DNA of 34,472 nucleotides, taken from contig JAOUMT010000005.1 of NCBI GenBank assembly GCA_029881355.1, forward strand, positions 1 to 34,472, given 5' to 3'. This document shows, one piece after another, positions 3,709 to 33,260 of the stretch. Origin of the DNA: Acidimicrobiia bacterium. GTDB taxonomy: Bacteria; Actinomycetota; Acidimicrobiia; Spongiisociales; JAENVV01. The position numbers and the translations under genes are program-made. The notes below the pieces were generated by a model that ran no database searches, was not told where the DNA came from, and saw only the letters and a program-made list of their open reading frames with translations. The first letter of the stretch is position 1. The number at the start of each line of letters is the position of its first letter.

Positions 3709-4419
3709 TCCCTTCTCCTCTCACTTGGGCCACCGCGCTCGATGACGAGGGTGGCCACCTGCGAATGATCCTACGCGCGCCAATGGCGATTGTGTACCCG
3801 CGTCTTGCTGACCCAACACCTCTCAGTGCGCCCCCGTCGCCATGGTCTCTCGTCCGGGAGCACACACCTGATCCAGAGGCGAGAGCTCCTGAGGCCGGAG
3901 CCGAAAACGTCCGAGACGAAGAACGTCGCAATGATCACCTCGGCAGACTTGTGAACTGGTCCCTCGGCTTGGAGTTCGCAACTCCCAACACCACCGCAAG
4001 CTCGGTGAACCAGATGAACCAGCACACGGACCATCGAAGCGACACGGTAGAAAGTCTCCAGACGTCACGATGGCGATGGTCCTCGAATGGCTTCGGTTTG
4101 CTCTCAGGGTGACTGCCATGTCGGGCCGCCCTACTACCGACCCTCTCACGTTCCCGCGTCTCTCGAGTAGACGACGAAGCTAGATGTCTCAGAGGTTCGA
4201 GCGTTGGGCTGGTCATAGGTTTGAATCCCTGCGACGAGGCTGATTTGCCAGGGTAGATTTCGGGCGATCCGGGTTGGCCTGACCCGGATCTCGCCCTCCG
4301 TATGGCTGCTCATTCGGTCTACGTTCGGGTATGGATGTTGGTGACAGGATCTTTGTTGTCACGTTCGCTCTCATGCGAACGTTCCTCCTACGTGAGACGC
4401 CTTCTGACTGGTGCTGGTG
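3709..4419. other. long gap, no gene recognised
   Basis: About 700 bases separate the divergent LVIVD gene and first sigma factor gene. The ORFs listed here have scrambled, Arg/Ser/Thr-rich translations typical of non-coding frames. Two structures stand out: a tRNA-like T-arm string (GGTTTGAATCC near 4219) without a foldable tRNA around it, and an 8-bp inverted repeat at 4361-4382 close to the sigma gene. Confidence 0.5.
4361..4382. promoter_or_regulatory. inverted repeat upstream of the first ECF sigma gene
   Basis: ACGTTCGC and GCGAACGT form a perfect 8-bp inverted repeat around TCTCAT, 37 bases before the ATG at 4420. An overlapping shorter repeat, GTGACA/TGTCAC, sits at 4341-4362. It could be an operator or an RNA hairpin in the leader. 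No ECF-type GGAAC/CGTC pair was found next to it. Confidence 0.4.
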
Positions 4420-4968
4420 ATGACGATTGCTGACGAGAGGTTTCGAGAGCTTTATGACTCTTACTTCAAGCCCGTCCACGCCTATTGCCACCGTCGCACC
4501 GAGCCTGATCGGGTGGATGATGCCACCTCCGAAGTCTTTCTCGTCGCCTGGAGGAAGATCGATCAGGTACCAGCTGGCACCGATGCCCTGCCATGGCTCT
4601 ATCAAGTGGCCTACGGAGTTCTTACCAATGTGTGGCGCGGCGCCGGGCGCCAGACCCGCCTCCGACAGAAGTTGGACGCATATGGCGTGGGCACTGCACC
4701 TCCGGCGGATGAATTTGTGGTGATGCGTCAAGAGGCGCGACAGATACTTGAAGCGATGGCCCTGCTCAAGGCTTCGCAACAAGAGGTGTTGCGTTTATCC
4801 GTGTGGGAGGGCCTGTCGGGATCAGAGTTGGCTATCGCGTTGGACGTCACTGTCGACGCCGCCAAACAGCGACTGTCTCGGGCTCGGCGTGAATTGGCTG
4901 ATTCTTATAACCGTCTCGAAGCTGGAAAGAAGCCGTCATTGGTTGCTCGGAAAGGAGGTGCGTGGTGA
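4420..4968 (+). CDS. ECF-type RNA polymerase sigma factor
   Basis: This is a sigma-70 family, extracytoplasmic-function sigma factor of 182 residues that would direct RNA polymerase to a small regulon. Region 2 spans roughly residues 5-65, with RFRELYDSYFKPVHAYCHRR, the DDATSEVFLVAWRKID recognition helix and the ALPWLYQVAYGVLTN run. Region 4 spans roughly 112-165, with LKASQQEVLRLSVWEGLSG and the helix-turn-helix ELAIALDVTVDAAKQRLSRARREL. An upstream in-frame GTG at 4411 is possible; neither start has a clear ribosome site. The gene overlaps its neighbour through a GTGA junction, so the two are translationally coupled, as ECF sigma and anti-sigma pairs often are. The signal sensed is unknown. 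Confidence 0.9.
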   Translation: MTIADERFRELYDSYFKPVHAYCHRRTEPDRVDDATSEVFLVAWRKIDQVPAGTDALPWLYQVAYGVLTNVWRGAGRQTRLRQKLDAYGVGTAPPADEFVVMRQEARQILEAMALLKASQQEVLRLSVWEGLSGSELAIALDVTVDAAKQRLSRARRELADSYNRLEAGKKPSLVARKGGAW

Positions 4969-6182
4969 TCAACGAAGCCCAAGCCTTGGCGCTTTTGGAT
5001 GAAGTGAATCCGGTTCCGGATTTGGAGTCCTACGAGGTCGAGGCGGCAGAAGTCACTCCGCAGCTCACGACCCTTGTTCAAAGGAGCAGCGAAATGACAC
5101 AACTCGATACCCGACGCGCCAACGTATCTCCGCGACCGAAGCAGCCCACTTTCTGGGTGGCGGCAGCGGTCGTCATCGTGCTTATCGGAGCAGTTGCGCT
5201 GCTCCTCAGTCAGACCCGTGAAGTGGCGCCGGCGGCGCCTGTAGCGCCGATCCCGCATTCGTCGTCGTCCACCATGTCAACTGAGGGGGTGGATATCTCT
5301 CAGTTGGTCGACGTGAACGACTGGATTGCCTACCAGGGGCCCGGACCAGATGGCACGGCGTTCGTTTTCCTGGTGCATCCAGGCGGCACTGAAAGACACA
5401 AGATTGGAGAAGAAGTCGGTGCCTCTGGCCTACCTGATTGGTCGCCAGATGGAACCAGCGTCATCTTCACAACCAGAGGGGGTGTCACTGAACCGCTGTA
5501 TTCCTACGATTTGGCCACTGAAACCTCGAGTGAGGTCTTTGCGTGCGAGGACCCCTGCGTAGCGGACGACGAACCGTCCTATTCCGCCGACGGATCCCAA
5601 ATTGTGTTCACCAGATACTTTGGGCCTATCGTCAATGACCTGCCGTCCGATTGCGGCCTGTGGATAGGGAACGTGGACACCAAGCAGGTGACGCAGATAA
5701 CTTCCAATCCTGGTTGTGACAAAGAATACGCCCCTCGCTTGTCGCCGGACGGAACCACAATCGCCTATCACCGATACGACGAGAACGGATTTGGGAAGAG
5801 GACGGCGGTGTTCCTGATCGACGTGGCGGGTGGAGACGAAACGCAACTCACTGATTGGTCTATTAGTGCAGCAGAGCCCGTCTGGTCGCCCGACGGGGAA
5901 TGGCTCGTGGTCTCTTTCGACCCTGAGGGAATTGACCGATCGGGCAGTGATCTGCACAGGATGCGACCAGACGGATCCGAAGTCGAGCAGCTGACGTTCT
6001 ACGAAACCGTCGTACGGCGGCCATATCACCCTCGGTACACGCCGGACGGTGAATGGATCGTCTATTCGCTCCATAGCAGCGCGGGCACGGAGCTATGGAT
6101 GATCCCCGCCGAGGGCGGGAACCCCGTAGCCCTCGTCACGGGCGGCCATTTCGTGCACCCGGCGTGGCAACCCACCCCCTAA
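4965..6182 (+). CDS. probable anti-sigma/sensor membrane protein with TolB-like WD40 propeller
   Basis: This 405-residue protein probably anchors and controls the sigma factor encoded just upstream. Its cytoplasmic N-terminus (about residues 1-60) has ALALLDEVNPVPDLESYEV, resembling short tails seen on actinobacterial ECF partners. One membrane segment follows at about 65-85 (FWVAAAVVIVLIGAVALLL). The outside part carries at least five PD40/TolB-type blades marked by WSPDG, YSADG, LSPDG, WSPDG and YTPDG, each followed by a hydrophobic strand. The GTG at 4965 overlaps the sigma stop codon and sits 6-7 bases after AAAGGAGG; a tandem GTG at 4962 is too close. No zinc-binding anti-sigma HxxxCxxC motif is present. 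The anti-sigma role is inferred from position and topology. Confidence 0.78.
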   Translation: MINEAQALALLDEVNPVPDLESYEVEAAEVTPQLTTLVQRSSEMTQLDTRRANVSPRPKQPTFWVAAAVVIVLIGAVALLLSQTREVAPAAPVAPIPHSSSSTMSTEGVDISQLVDVNDWIAYQGPGPDGTAFVFLVHPGGTERHKIGEEVGASGLPDWSPDGTSVIFTTRGGVTEPLYSYDLATETSSEVFACEDPCVADDEPSYSADGSQIVFTRYFGPIVNDLPSDCGLWIGNVDTKQVTQITSNPGCDKEYAPRLSPDGTTIAYHRYDENGFGKRTAVFLIDVAGGDETQLTDWSISAAEPVWSPDGEWLVVSFDPEGIDRSGSDLHRMRPDGSEVEQLTFYETVVRRPYHPRYTPDGEWIVYSLHSSAGTELWMIPAEGGNPVALVTGGHFVHPAWQPTP

Positions 6183-6988: not shown

Positions 6989-7603
6989 TCCGATCCAGCT
7001 CCAGACCGCCGCGGGAGACGTGACAGAATCCCCATGAGGCCAACCCCATTTGCCGTCGTCCGGTCGGTCGCATCGGCCTTGATAGCGCGGGTGACCCGTT
7101 CGGTCATGACGGTCGTGTTCATGGCAGCACTCACTCGGCGATTCGTACAAGCCGACGATAACCAATTGGCAAGTCCCGGGCGCCGGACTCGCCAATTGAA
7201 AGCTCCACGAAACGTGGGCGTATCCGAAGCTCGTAACTATGTCGTCGACCAGCAACGAATAAGGTTTTCGCCTGAAGCCACTCGACCGTTACGACCGGCT
7301 CGCCCGCCGCTCCACGGATAGACCCAGACTGCAGGGTCCTAATCGGCAAGCTGTGCCACGATCGACCGAGAGAGTCACCCAGAGACTTCTTCTGCCTTCC
7401 ACCAGGCATGCAGGTTCGGCTCCTCCGTCGTGAATCGACTCGCTTGGAGCACGCCCCGTTTACCGACTGGCGGCCAGCCAGGGGTTGGATCTGGGATCTT
7501 CGGTCTCCTTCCGCGAGATAGGTGAAATGACGGAGGGTCTGCCGGACACAGGGGGTTTGAAAGCAGCAAGAGGTGCTGCATCTAAGACTCAAAGGAGATA
7601 GAA
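6989..7603. other. long gap, no gene recognised
   Basis: About 615 bases lie between the frameshifted gene and the small repeat protein. ORFs on both strands here (for example 7034-7321 plus and 7131-7592 minus) have random-looking composition and no ribosome site, and look like shadows. A candidate promoter lies at its right end. Confidence 0.5.
7557..7586 (+). promoter_or_regulatory. candidate promoter of the repeat-peptide gene
   Basis: TTGAAA (7557-7562) is separated by 18 bases from TCTAAG (7581-7586), a plausible but imperfect -35/-10 pair. A short inverted repeat, GCAGC/GCTGC (7563-7567 and 7575-7579), sits between them and might bind a regulator. The ribosome site AAAGGAG follows before the ATG at 7604. 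Confidence 0.3.
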
Positions 7604-7900
7604 ATGAACAAGAAGATCGTGTTGGCCATTGCAGCCCTGTTGGTGGCGGGATCGACTACGGGGTTCGTGCTGGCCAATTCCTCTGATGACGGGGTTGCCG
7701 GGAGTGGCATGCCAGTTCCAGGCTTTGAAGGCTCCGTGGAAGAGACCGTCGTTGACGGCGTGTCGAGCAGCGGGATGCCAGTTCCGGGTTTTGAGGGTTC
7801 CGTGGAAGAGACCGTCGTTGACGGGGTGTCGAGCAGCGGGATGCCGGTTCCGGGTTTCGAGGGTCAGATCGACGACACAGTGGTCGAAGTTTCTCCCTAG
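7604..7900 (+). CDS. small exported protein with three 22-residue repeats
   Basis: This 98-residue protein has no family that I recognise. Residues 1-25 look like a signal peptide or membrane anchor (MNKK, then IVLAIAALLVAG, then TTGFVLA). The rest is almost wholly repeat: SGMPVPGFEG begins at residues 34, 56 and 78, a period of 22. Copies one and two are identical in protein (the unit continues SVEETVVDGVSS), while copy three diverges and ends the protein (QIDDTVVEVSP). The repeats are acidic and lack cysteine. The ATG at 7604 follows a good AAAGGAGATAG ribosome site and a strong hairpin follows the stop, so it is its own transcription unit just upstream of an ECF sigma gene. It might be a surface or signalling peptide, but no function can be assigned. 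Confidence 0.82.
   Translation: MNKKIVLAIAALLVAGSTTGFVLANSSDDGVAGSGMPVPGFEGSVEETVVDGVSSSGMPVPGFEGSVEETVVDGVSSSGMPVPGFEGQIDDTVVEVSP
7703..7897 (+). repeat. three tandem 66-bp coding repeats
   Basis: Copies start at 7703, 7769 and 7835. The last is 63 bp before the stop codon. Copies one and two encode the same 22 residues and differ at a handful of synonymous positions (for example CCAGTTCCAGGC against CCAGTTCCGGGT). This indicates duplication followed by selection on the protein sequence. Confidence 0.9.
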
Positions 7901-7916
7901 CAATGCGGCTCAGAAG

Positions 7917-7942
7917 GCGGGGAGGACCGGGGTCCTCCCCGC
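7917..7942 (+). terminator. strong GC-rich hairpin after the repeat-peptide gene
   Basis: GCGGGGAGGACC and GGTCCTCCCCGC are exactly complementary. With a minimal loop this gives an 11-bp stem and a CGGG tetraloop, 16 bases past the stop codon. Confidence 0.75.
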
Positions 7943-8069
7943 TTGCGCGTCGTGGCCAAGGTGCCATCCCCCGGACCCGGCACGGTCGAGTACGCGGAAG
8001 GACTGTTGTGGTAGCGTCTCACCTGTTTCTTCCTGGCCTTTCGAGGCCACCGTCGGCTCAAGGGAGGAA

Positions 8070-8666
8070 ATGACTGACGAAGCTCGTGTCGCACAATTCC
8101 GCTTGTTGTATGACGCCGGATATCCTCGGATTGTGGCCTACGCACTGCGGCGAGCCCGTTCCCACGACGAGGCATATGACATCGTCGGGGATACTTTCAT
8201 GACGGCCTGGCGTCGCCTTGACGACATGCCGCCGGAAGACGCACGGATCCCCTGGCTGTATGGGATTGCCCGCCGCGTGCTCTCGAATCACTATCGCTCC
8301 ACTGATCGACGACGGCGCCTTGCCGAGCGGCTTCAGACAGAAACTCCCGCCATATCGTCGGCCTCGGAGGACGGACCCGAAGTTGTCCGAGTCGCCCTCG
8401 GCCGGCTCAGGCCGGACGACCGGGAGATCCTCACCCTGGCAACGTGGGACGACTTGACGAACGAGGAGATCGCCTTCGCCCTTGACATCACCGCTGCAAC
8501 GGTAGCGTTGCGCCTTCATCGGGCACGCGGGCGGCTCGCCAAGGAACTTGCCAGGCTGGGATATGCCCCAGAAGGGGAACATGAAGTGCAATCTGCCGAG
8601 GGGAGCCGGACACTTAACGCAGTGAACGGCATCGACGAAGCACTGATCGAGGAGGCCGAGACATGA
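8070..8666 (+). CDS. ECF-type RNA polymerase sigma factor (second module)
   Basis: This 198-residue sigma-70 family ECF factor resembles the one at 4420 in layout. Region 2 covers about residues 8-75 (FRLLYDAGYPRIVAYALRRA, then AYDIVGDTFMTAWRRLD and IPWLYGIARRVLSNHYRS). Region 4 covers about 108-160 (LGRLRPDDREILTLATWDDL, then the helix-turn-helix EEIAFALDITAATVALRLHRARGRL). A tail of about 38 residues follows. The ATG at 8070 is preceded by AGGGAGGAA at good spacing; the longer ORF from 7629 runs through the neighbouring gene in another frame and is not real. It overlaps the next gene by ATGA. The residue identity to the first factor looks modest by eye, so it likely has a different regulon. 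Confidence 0.92.
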   Translation: MTDEARVAQFRLLYDAGYPRIVAYALRRARSHDEAYDIVGDTFMTAWRRLDDMPPEDARIPWLYGIARRVLSNHYRSTDRRRRLAERLQTETPAISSASEDGPEVVRVALGRLRPDDREILTLATWDDLTNEEIAFALDITAATVALRLHRARGRLAKELARLGYAPEGEHEVQSAEGSRTLNAVNGIDEALIEEAET

Positions 8667-9283
8667 GCAGGAAGTACGAGGGTGACGCGCTTGCGGCGCT
8701 TCGTCGCGCCGATCCGCTCGATCCAGCGGATGCGCCCGCAGACACCTCCGGACCGCACGCCACAACCCTTTTTCATAAGATCACCACTATCGACGCGGCG
8801 TATGCACCCACCCGGGCGCCGGTCACGCGCCCCCTCTACCGGATGGCCCTGGCCATGGGCGGAGCTGCGGTCGTCGCGGTAGCGATCATCGGCGTCACCG
8901 TCGCACGCAGCGGCGACCGTCAGCCTGAACAGATCGCCGGGGGAGTTCCGATCGCGTCACCCGCGATGTGTCTTGAGTCATACGATCTACAAACCCTCGC
9001 CAACCGCGATGTGGCTTTTGACGGAACCCTGGCGTCCGTCGACGGTGACACCGTCAGCTTCGACGTGAATACATGGTTCACGGGCGGCCCGGCCGACCAG
9101 GTGACACTCGATGCCCCCGGACTAATCAGCGGGATCACCTCTGTTTCACCGACCGGAGCGACCTTCGAGATCGGCTCGCGCTACCTGGTGTCGGGCTCCA
9201 GCGGATTTGTGTTCGCCTGCGGATTCACCATGACCTACGACAGCGCCATCGCCGCCGACTGGGCAAATGCGTTCGGACCGTGA
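8663..9283 (+). CDS. probable anti-sigma/sensor membrane protein
   Basis: This 206-residue single-pass protein is coupled to the sigma gene by an ATGA overlap, so a role as its membrane-bound controller is likely. The cytoplasmic part (about residues 1-55) includes DALAALRRADPLDPADAP, echoing the ALALLDEVNPVPD segment of the protein at 4965. A membrane segment at about 70-87 reads ALAMGGAAVVAVAIIGVTVA. The outside domain (about 100-206) has three cysteines (MCLESY, FACGF) and a beta-rich run (VAFDGTLASVDGDTVSFDVN, FEIGSRYLVSGS), somewhat like small OB/NTR-type folds; this is a guess. No zinc anti-sigma motif is present. A convergent gene follows on the other strand. Confidence 0.75.
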   Translation: MSRKYEGDALAALRRADPLDPADAPADTSGPHATTLFHKITTIDAAYAPTRAPVTRPLYRMALAMGGAAVVAVAIIGVTVARSGDRQPEQIAGGVPIASPAMCLESYDLQTLANRDVAFDGTLASVDGDTVSFDVNTWFTGGPADQVTLDAPGLISGITSVSPTGATFEIGSRYLVSGSSGFVFACGFTMTYDSAIAADWANAFGP

Positions 9284-9375
9284 GACGAGGACAGTCCTTC
9301 TTCCCTTCTTCCTGGGACCCTCTGGACGAACTCCGTCCGCTGAACTAAGGAACCGATTTGCCTACGGGATCGTGC

Positions 9376-10482: not shown

Positions 10483-10593
10483 GACCGTGTTTGCGAGATA
10501 CCGAATGTCAACCGCCGGTGAATCACACAAGCTGCGTCCAGAGGAATTTGGCCCTTGACGAACCCTGCCGATCAGGCGTACAACTTGCTAATG

Positions 10594-10723: not shown

Positions 10724-12469
10724 ATGCGACGGATTACCTTTCTGACCGTGTTGACGATGATTATGTCGGCGGTCCCGACCGCGGCGATGGCCGCAGCACC
10801 GAACAACGACGATTTTGCAAGTGCCACGGCGGTCGCGGCGCTGCCATACTCCGAATCGGTTTCGGTTGGCGAAGCGACGACCGAAACCGGTGAACCGGTA
10901 GAGACCTGTGCTCCATTTGCGAATACCGTCTGGTACGCGGTCACGTTGGCCTCAGATCGTGACGTACGGGTCGACACGGCCGGCTCCAACTACGACACCA
11001 CTCTGGCGGTGTGGGCAGGGACGAGTTTCGAGGACGCGGTACTGATCGCTTGCAATGACGATACGTCTATGGGGCTTCAGTCGGCGTTGACCTTCTCAGC
11101 GGCTGCCGGCACCACGTACTTCGTCCAGGCGGGGGCCTTCTTTGAGGCACCGTCTGATGCGGTGCTCAATATTTCCTTCGCCAAGCCAAAGCCCGGTGTG
11201 CGTCCAACCATCCAAAGTGACCGGTTTCGCGGCTCCATCGCAGAGGCTTTCAACGAGTCCTACGACGACGCCACGGGTGGCTCCAGCTTTGCAGGAGTTC
11301 AGGTGATTGACGGGTCGGTCAAGACCAAAGGGCAACGTCCCGAGCAGTTCTCGGTGCTCGTCGTGAACAGCTCTGAGTCGGCGTACGACGAAGCCAGTGA
11401 CGTCTACACATTCACCGACTGGTACGGGATGGTCGACCTGGCCTCTGATCAGTTCTCCATGGACCGTCGACTCGCCGGCGCATCCGTATCGGCCGGGCTT
11501 ACCATGTATGGCTTCAGCTGTATCGATGACTTCGCCAACCAGACGTTTGAGTGCGTCGACCTGGGTCCGGCGGATGTCACCGTAGATGTCGCTTGGTCCG
11601 GCGAGGGACGAGTGATTCCTTCGAGTTGGCGCTCGAGCGACCAGTATGACGGTTTCAGAATGCGCTTTTCCGGTCGATCGGATAGCCGTTCGGCGACCGT
11701 CGCCGGAGGAGCCTATGGAGACTTAATCATCGATCTCGAAGGAGCGTTCGGACGGTTGTCGAACGAAGCCAGCGGATCGTGGTTCTGGGCATCAGCAGAC
11801 GCCGGAGGTGGTTTCTTTGCCACCGGGACATCGCTCTTCCAGAGCCAAATGCAAGACACCGGATTGGCCGGAACCCCATCGATCATGTTCGATCGGTTCA
11901 GCGGAAGCTTTGCAGACGCCTACCAAGAGCACTACGACGAAGAGAATGGGGGCTACGGATATCAGCAGGTGTCCTTGACGTCCGGGCGCAGCAAGGTCAA
12001 GGGCGATCGGTGGGTTTCGACGGACCAGGTGTGGGTGTATGGGTCCGAAGACTCCTTTGACGAGGTGGCCCGAACGGTCACTTCAACAGTCTGGTACGGC
12101 GGCACCGAGGTCGGAGCGGACGAATTCTCGATTGATCGGAAACTCGGCAGTGCCAGCGTCGTGACAAGCGTGCCAATGGTTGGCGAGACCTGCACGTACT
12201 CGTATAACGACGATTCGTTCGAGTGCGAGTCGATCGGCGAGACCACCGTCGATGTCGAGATCGACTGGGAAGGGGTTGGAGCCATCTCCCAGTCCTCAAG
12301 CAGCTACCAGGACCGATATGACGGGATGACCTACTCGTTCCGGGGTCGGTTCAGCGGGCGCTCGGCGATCGTCACGGGTCATGTCAGCGGTGACCTCTTC
12401 GATTGGGATATGGGAGGCGCCTACGGGCAACTGGGACGCCAGGCGATGGGCAGCTGGTACAAGAGCTGA
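10724..12469 (+). CDS. secreted protein with PPC-like domain and two related domains
   Basis: This 581-residue secreted protein has a signal peptide (about residues 1-25, ending AMAAAP). Residues 26-155 match the bacterial pre-peptidase C-terminal (PPC-like) sandwich: NNDDFASATAVAALP, then VWYAVTLASDRDVRVDTAGS, YDTTLAVWAG and TYFVQAGAF. Two copies of an unrecognised domain of about 190 residues follow (about 160-345 and 380-575), sharing DRFRGS/DRFSGS, DWYGMVD/VWYGGTE, FSMDRRL/FSIDRKL, a Cys pair, and DQYDGF/DRYDGM with RFSGRS. Each has two conserved cysteines (FSC..FEC; ETC..FEC), suggesting disulphides. The ATG follows AGGAGG at good spacing. No catalytic motif is visible, so a binding or surface role is likely but unproven. 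Confidence 0.85.
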   Translation: MRRITFLTVLTMIMSAVPTAAMAAAPNNDDFASATAVAALPYSESVSVGEATTETGEPVETCAPFANTVWYAVTLASDRDVRVDTAGSNYDTTLAVWAGTSFEDAVLIACNDDTSMGLQSALTFSAAAGTTYFVQAGAFFEAPSDAVLNISFAKPKPGVRPTIQSDRFRGSIAEAFNESYDDATGGSSFAGVQVIDGSVKTKGQRPEQFSVLVVNSSESAYDEASDVYTFTDWYGMVDLASDQFSMDRRLAGASVSAGLTMYGFSCIDDFANQTFECVDLGPADVTVDVAWSGEGRVIPSSWRSSDQYDGFRMRFSGRSDSRSATVAGGAYGDLIIDLEGAFGRLSNEASGSWFWASADAGGGFFATGTSLFQSQMQDTGLAGTPSIMFDRFSGSFADAYQEHYDEENGGYGYQQVSLTSGRSKVKGDRWVSTDQVWVYGSEDSFDEVARTVTSTVWYGGTEVGADEFSIDRKLGSASVVTSVPMVGETCTYSYNDDSFECESIGETTVDVEIDWEGVGAISQSSSSYQDRYDGMTYSFRGRFSGRSAIVTGHVSGDLFDWDMGGAYGQLGRQAMGSWYKS

Positions 12470-32868: not shown

Positions 32869-33255
32869 TGAGTTCGCCGGGCGACCGCCGGGAGCAATCC
32901 TGGAGGAAAGTCCGGACTCCACAGGGCAAGGGTGCTGGGTAATACCCAGGCGGCGCGAGCCGATGGAAAGTGCAACAGAAAGCAAACCGCCAACGCCGCA
33001 AGGCACGGTAAGGGTGAAACGGTGGTGTAAGAGACCACCAGCGCGTCGGGTGACCGGCGCGGCTGGTAAACCCCGCCCGGAGCAAGGCCATGCAGAGATG
33101 ATGACGGCCCGTCGATCCTCTTCGGAGGTGAAAGTCTCGGGTAGGCCGCACGAGGTTGTCCGGTAACGGCAATCCCAGATAGATGGTCGCTGCCTGCTTG
33201 AAGTCGAGTTTGCTCGAACAAGCAGGAGACAGAATCCGGCTTATAGGCGAACTCA
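32869..33255 (+). ncRNA. rnpB: RNase P RNA, bacterial type A
   Basis: This catalytic RNA matures the 5' ends of tRNAs. The ends pair as P1: GAGTTCGCC (32870-32878) with GGCGAACTC (33246-33254). The conserved core GAGGAAAGTCCGGACTCC plus ACAGGGCAAGG is present, as are CAACAGAAAGCAAACCGCC, GGTAAGGGTGAAACGG, the CCCGCCCGGAGCAAGG region and CAGAATCCGGCTTATAGGC near the 3' end. The length of about 387 bases suits a type A RNA. The ORFs on both strands here are spurious. Confidence 0.96.
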
Positions 33256-33260
33256 AACTT

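Follow-up and report, generated by a model that had tools for sequence, protein, structure and literature searches.

A predicted exported repeat protein at the head of a putatively self-activated ECF sigma factor operon in Acidimicrobiia

ECF sigma factors usually autoregulate, and autoregulated ECF promoters have been found via a two-block motif upstream of sigma operons (PMC3817407). The locus analyzed here lies in a stretch of 34,472 nucleotides from an Acidimicrobiia bacterium, the whole of which we term the window. It resembles such operons in that a sigma gene is followed by a membrane protein gene, and in the presence upstream of a promoter-like two-block motif conserved at a fixed spacing, which is the feature by which an autoregulated ECF operon is recognized. 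It differs from them in that a predicted exported repeat protein leads the operon and in that the motif recurs within the coding region of the sigma gene, ahead of the putative anti-sigma gene. We found no report of a promoter inside an ECF sigma gene in the open-access literature.

The nearest working analogy is the SigK-RskA system of Mycobacterium, a small ECF regulon whose main products, MPT70 and MPT83, are exported (PMC7509140). The shared feature would be a small ECF regulon with exported main products; unlike in that system, the product here is an apparently unfolded acidic repeat protein and its gene comes first in the sigma operon. No sequence relation of the repeat protein to MPT70/MPT83 was found, in that it matched no Pfam family. 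A further comparison is offered by Tt-RpoE1 of T. tengcongensis, which has the autoregulated promoter tGTTAC-N16-CGTC and a TolB-like anti-sigma factor (PMC3397946). Its promoter is of comparable geometry to the element described below but has other block sequences. The Tt-RpoE1/TolB pair resembles not the repeat-gene pair but the window's other ECF module on the + strand (4411-6182), in which a sigma gene (4411-4968) overlaps one for a PD40/TolB-like membrane protein (4962-6182); this second module is 86% identical in genome G003 and is without a copy of the element.

The repeat-protein gene and its immediate neighbors

The repeat-protein gene (Table 1) starts with ATG and encodes the protein MNKKIVLAIAALLVAGSTTGFVLANSSDDGVAGSGMPVPGFEGSVEETVVDGVSSSGMPVPGFEGSVEETVVDGVSSSGMPVPGFEGQIDDTVVEVSP, in which SGMPVPGFEG begins at residues 34, 56 and 78, as reported in the first-pass annotation of this DNA. 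The window's single tandem array by TRF spans 7687-7864 (period 66, 2.7 copies, score 263). The three near-identical 22-residue repeats of that annotation hold for units 1 and 2, which are identical in protein; in contrast, unit 3 has only the 10-residue core fully in common with them, its tail QIDDTVVEVSP being divergent. Over 16.3 synonymous and 49.7 non-synonymous sites, these two units differ at seven codons, all synonymously, and because no amino-acid difference accompanies them, the ORF is a real gene under protein-level selection, in agreement with the earlier claim that these units are selected. Changes in the gene between species are also mostly synonymous. Six of the seven differences between units 1 and 2 fall in the core. 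The core of unit 2 resembles the last unit's and its spacer is that of unit 1, a pattern that suggests unequal crossover in an ancestor with two units.

Judged by eye, the first 20-25 residues of the protein resemble a signal peptide or a membrane anchor. The AlphaFold2 model has a helix at residues 3-23 followed by low-confidence coil, and is uninformative. The 74 residues after the putative signal include 14 acidic residues but no basic residue and no cysteine. The annotation had recognized no matching family, and searches of Pfam, NCBIfam and the PDB likewise gave no match. Hits to Salmonella plasmids (tibA, 38% identity, E 1e-2) were of low complexity and were dismissed.

Table 1. Features of the repeat-gene locus (window coordinates)
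Feature	Position	Strand	Remarks or basis
Module: leader, repeat gene, ECF sigma, putative anti-sigma	7493..9289	+	94% identity to G002
Conserved leader of repeat gene	7508..7603	+	Alignment of window, G002 and G004
Putative ECF promoter, GTGAAAT (-35) ... CGGACACA (-10)	7522..7550	+	Exact-match search and matrix score
Ribosome-binding site AAAGGAG	7591..7597	+	Sequence
Repeat-protein gene	7604..7900	+	98 aa; acidic repeats behind an N-terminal signal or anchor
Repeat unit 1, 22 aa	7703..7768	+	
Repeat unit 2, 22 aa	7769..7834	+	
Repeat unit 3, core and diverged C-terminal tail	7835..7897	+	Best-conserved part in G017
13-bp GC-rich hairpin without T run	7915..7944	+	Putative partial terminator or attenuator
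TGGTAGCGT, extended -10-like	8009..8017	+	Possible basal sigma promoter, judged by eye
ECF sigma factor gene	8070..8666	+	Pfam Sigma70_r2, r4_2; TIGR02937
Second element copy, GTGCAAT ... CGGACAC, in 3' end of sigma gene	8586..8613	+	
Putative membrane anti-sigma protein, outer domain TIMP/NTR-like	8663..9283	+	Overlap, helix, conservation, Foldseek

The gene has its own ribosome-binding site, as had been proposed. Upstream similarity stops sharply at the start of the leader, the BLAST boundary in genome G004 falling at 7508. The leader folds no better than shuffled sequences, and Rfam searches of the window, the leader and eight related loci returned no family above cut-off at the leader. Downstream of the gene, where the first-pass annotation placed a strong terminator, the segment 7901-7965 folds at -35.3 kcal/mol (z -2.6). 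The very stable hairpin in it is thus upheld; both G002 and G004 retain it, the latter with a change in both partners of one outer pair. A classical terminator, however, is unsupported: because the hairpin is without a T run and the terminator scan found no terminator-like site there, termination may be partial. A sub-threshold match of the Rfam model Corio-PBP over the hairpin (28.6 bits against a cut-off of 63.5) was dismissed. Between the hairpin and the sigma gene, TGGTAGCGT is identical in three species and could be a source of basal sigma expression; no site passed in a scan of this region for sigma-70-type promoters.

The assignment of the next gene as an ECF sigma factor is solid, with Sigma70_r2 and r4_2 matched at 41.7 and 47.1 bits, above their cut-offs, and TIGR02937 at 70.8 against 42.9. 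The gene following it starts within the end of the sigma gene, and its product, conserved in 11 loci, has one predicted membrane helix (60-82) and an outer domain. Thus, of the sigma/anti-sigma pair named in the first-pass annotation, the sigma half is firm, whereas the anti-sigma label is putative, being given by position and architecture, with no anti-sigma family matched in Pfam or NCBIfam. The NCBIfam family CU044_5270 (NF038083) shows weak similarity in the N-terminal and membrane region (16.8 and 26 bits, with a cut-off of 100), and the protein is not a member of it. The structural model averages 52 in pLDDT and the outer-domain core about 80; a Foldseek search placed TIMP-2, TIMP-1 and another NTR-like protein on top (best E 1.4e-3, probability 0.99). 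In its tentatively predicted fold, and with its two invariant cysteines, the outer domain is comparable to TIMP/NTR-type OB-fold domains. Unlike them, it is fused to a bacterial membrane protein; moreover, the model is of low confidence and a PDB sequence search with the protein gave no match.

A two-block element shared by the leader and the sigma gene

The leader contains the bipartite element TGAAAT-N13-CCGGACAC at 7523-7549. In the form GTGAAAT-N14-CGGACAC, this copy is the only exact match in its own genome, and the copy within the 3' end of the sigma gene, with GCAA in place of GAAA, is the only one-mismatch match. The pattern GAAA-N15-CGGACA precedes the repeat gene in 4/4 loci, with CGGACA 54-56 bp before the ATG. 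In orthologs from other families, too, the pattern lies within the sigma 3' end and ahead of the anti-sigma start: it occurs in G017, G023, G036, G040, G042, G044 and G046, and with one change (CGCACA) in G043. We trained a matrix on seven anti-sigma sites of other families, holding out the genus of the window and G017. In the window it scored the repeat-gene leader first (26.2) and the internal copy second (20.6), against 12.5 for the best unrelated site; at the held-out G017 locus the two expected sites ranked first and second (15.3 and 11.1 versus 7.0). At the internal sites the element uses AAA and ACA, two codons that are rare nearby, with shares of 3-37% and 3-15% in their codon families among the surrounding genes; in this codon test as in the matrix test, relatedness is not fully corrected, and most of the families compared are distant. 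Exact matches to the pattern of this subfamily (A) number 13 across the class, five of them without an ECF neighbor, and no second element was found upstream in six subfamily-A loci.

A divergent sister ECF subfamily, with anti-sigma proteins about 31-36% identical, carries the related element GACAGRAT-N11-CGGACAY, for which there are 26 matches in 395 genomes versus 2 for the reversed control; 17/26 lie in sigma/anti-sigma loci and 9/26 are without an ECF neighbor. Where it stands before the sigma gene, CGGACA is mostly 10-11 bp upstream of the sigma start, making for a nearly leaderless arrangement; inside the sigma 3' end it is mostly 33 bp before the anti-sigma start. Both copies occur, about 520 bp apart, in G035, G121, G122 and G133. 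Loci with the sister element include L053, L055, L056, L187, L189, L190 and L195, among others. CGGACA encodes Gly-His in the sister subfamily as opposed to Arg-Thr in subfamily A, and because it is read in another codon phase, conservation of the protein tail cannot account for it and the element acts as DNA. The element reads best as the cognate ECF promoter, with the window's own sigma factor as its presumed reader. This lends support to the earlier suggestion that the repeat gene is a target of the sigma module. The first-pass annotation had mentioned neither the element, nor its copy in the sigma gene, nor the exchange of the block described below.

Two candidates for additional regulon members were rejected: another exact element in G002 corresponds, via a one-mismatch counterpart, to the interior of a coding gene in G004, and a one-mismatch site before an exported lipoprotein in G002 has no counterpart with up to two mismatches in G000 or G004.

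Distribution and transfer of the module

Among 395 genomes of the class, which are mostly draft metagenome assemblies (G005 is 68% complete, so absence there says little), true relatives of the repeat protein were recovered from three species of the same genus and from G017, which belongs to another family of the order. Other weak matches (E 0.003-0.1 in the order search, 0.002-0.05 in the class profile search) were inspected where loci were given and, G017 apart, were chance-like; a scan of genome contigs gave no additional repeat-gene locus. Repeat number varies among relatives, with two units in the G002 ortholog and three here; in G004, a run of 100 N (an assembly gap) lies over the unit count. 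The G017 homolog, of 146 aa, has a similar N-terminus and a degenerate first unit, and its C-terminal unit, SSGMVVPGFEGVVTDFIVEPSS, ends as far from the stop as the last unit does in the window.

The link to an ECF pair was borne out at every locus found (4/4): an orthologous ECF sigma gene (44-94% identical to the window's) and the overlapping gene for the putative anti-sigma protein follow downstream of the repeat gene on its strand. Two additional genes intervene between the repeat gene and the sigma gene in G017, and one or both of them encode a lipoprotein-like product. Because most ECF orthologs outside the genus are without the repeat gene, the ECF system can work without it. Divergent ECF paralogs within the genus were also found to have no repeat gene.

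Identity to G002 is 94% over the module (7493-9289) as against 75-83% in the flanks. Genome G003, with the nearest flanks (about 86% DNA identity), is without the module, the window's 7067-9372 being replaced there by a different stretch encoding a 720-aa protein, and G004 keeps the module (87-91%) beside an unrelated upstream flank. Given these observations, the block from the leader to the anti-sigma stop moves as a unit and has been exchanged between species; its boundaries coincide with the promoter and the anti-sigma stop. The site itself seems to take different gene cassettes. The G003 replacement corresponds to L160 7041-9900, and its 720-aa protein starts with a signal-like segment. 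In G046, the operon slot in which the repeat gene stands here is taken by a predicted exported lipoprotein that is a copy of the TIMP-like domain and is preceded by the element; the slot after the first promoter therefore holds different predicted exported proteins in different lineages. The G046 lipoprotein gene lies upstream of the sigma gene at L051 3302-3833; a similar gene is present at L054 2058-2678.

A proposed working of the locus and its alternatives

The reality of the gene, the gene order, the shared promoter-like element, their conservation and the transfer as a unit, all read from sequence, lead us to favor an explanation in which a self-activated ECF operon has the 98-aa protein as its first, exported product; we put the probability of this full explanation at roughly 0.7. 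Under it, a signal would make the putative membrane anti-sigma protein, which has the TIMP-like outer domain, free the ECF sigma factor, which would bring the polymerase to the leader promoter. Transcription from there would yield abundant exported repeat protein, while the downstream hairpin probably limits read-through, such that less sigma factor than repeat protein, yet still more sigma factor, is made. The internal promoter copy in the sigma 3' end would give an extra anti-sigma transcript and turn the response off. The acidic, unfolded and multivalent repeat protein would then do its work beyond the membrane, the likeliest role being that of an effector at the surface or in the envelope. 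If so, an uncharacterized Acidimicrobiia ECF subfamily gains a concrete target, promoter and transfer unit. The suggested design, in which the sigma gene carries a copy of a sigma-dependent promoter in its coding region immediately ahead of the anti-sigma gene, is kept in several reading phases across families and is traceable by sequence.

The main alternative to an effector at the surface or envelope is that the repeat protein binds the TIMP-like domain. As a feedback ligand of the anti-sigma outer domain it would tune its own sigma factor, with the regulation otherwise unchanged. That the repeat gene shares its operon and transfer unit with the anti-sigma gene fits this, as does the G017 C-terminal unit, which keeps its sequence and stop distance as a specific binding unit would, and so does the TIMP-like lipoprotein copy in the same operon slot of G046. 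On the other hand, many loci that lack the repeat gene conserve the outer domain, and we consider such a ligand unlikely. An elaborated form, in which the sigma factor of a transferable cassette makes its own repeat ligand for the TIMP-like domain, the number of units tunes the binding and the internal promoter adds anti-sigma protein, is to be regarded as unlikely. The first-pass annotation had also suggested a precursor of short peptides. Identical tandem units behind an export signal would suit cleavage outside the cell into 22-residue signal peptides, but without basic residues there is nowhere for trypsin-like or kexin-like cleavage, the neighboring ORFs scanned include no peptide-modifying enzyme, and G017 has only two diverged units; this proposal fares poorly and is very improbable.

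Doubts may also be directed at the element or at the gene. The element could be an RNA leader hairpin or the binding site of another protein instead of a promoter, in that CAC...GTG can pair at the anti-sigma sites, with some changes on both sides. Yet this pairing is absent before the repeat gene in the genus, the position of the sister element so close to the sigma start is that expected for the -10 block of a nearly leaderless promoter, and neither the Rfam nor the folding results speak for a structured leader, which together make this reading distinctly unlikely. That the ORF is a chance or decaying frame kept by a recent duplication might be argued from its shortness, its apparent lack of fold and its narrow distribution; we hold this to be extremely improbable in the face of the exclusively synonymous changes between units 1 and 2 and the mostly synonymous ones between species, the homolog from another family at the same ECF locus and the conserved upstream element.

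Elsewhere in the window, G003 has no counterpart of the segment 10503-12543 with its 581-aa ORF (10724-12469); positions 10502 and 12544 are directly joined there. The window also contains a tRNA gene at 49-121 and a class A RNase P RNA at 32869-33259, both on the + strand.
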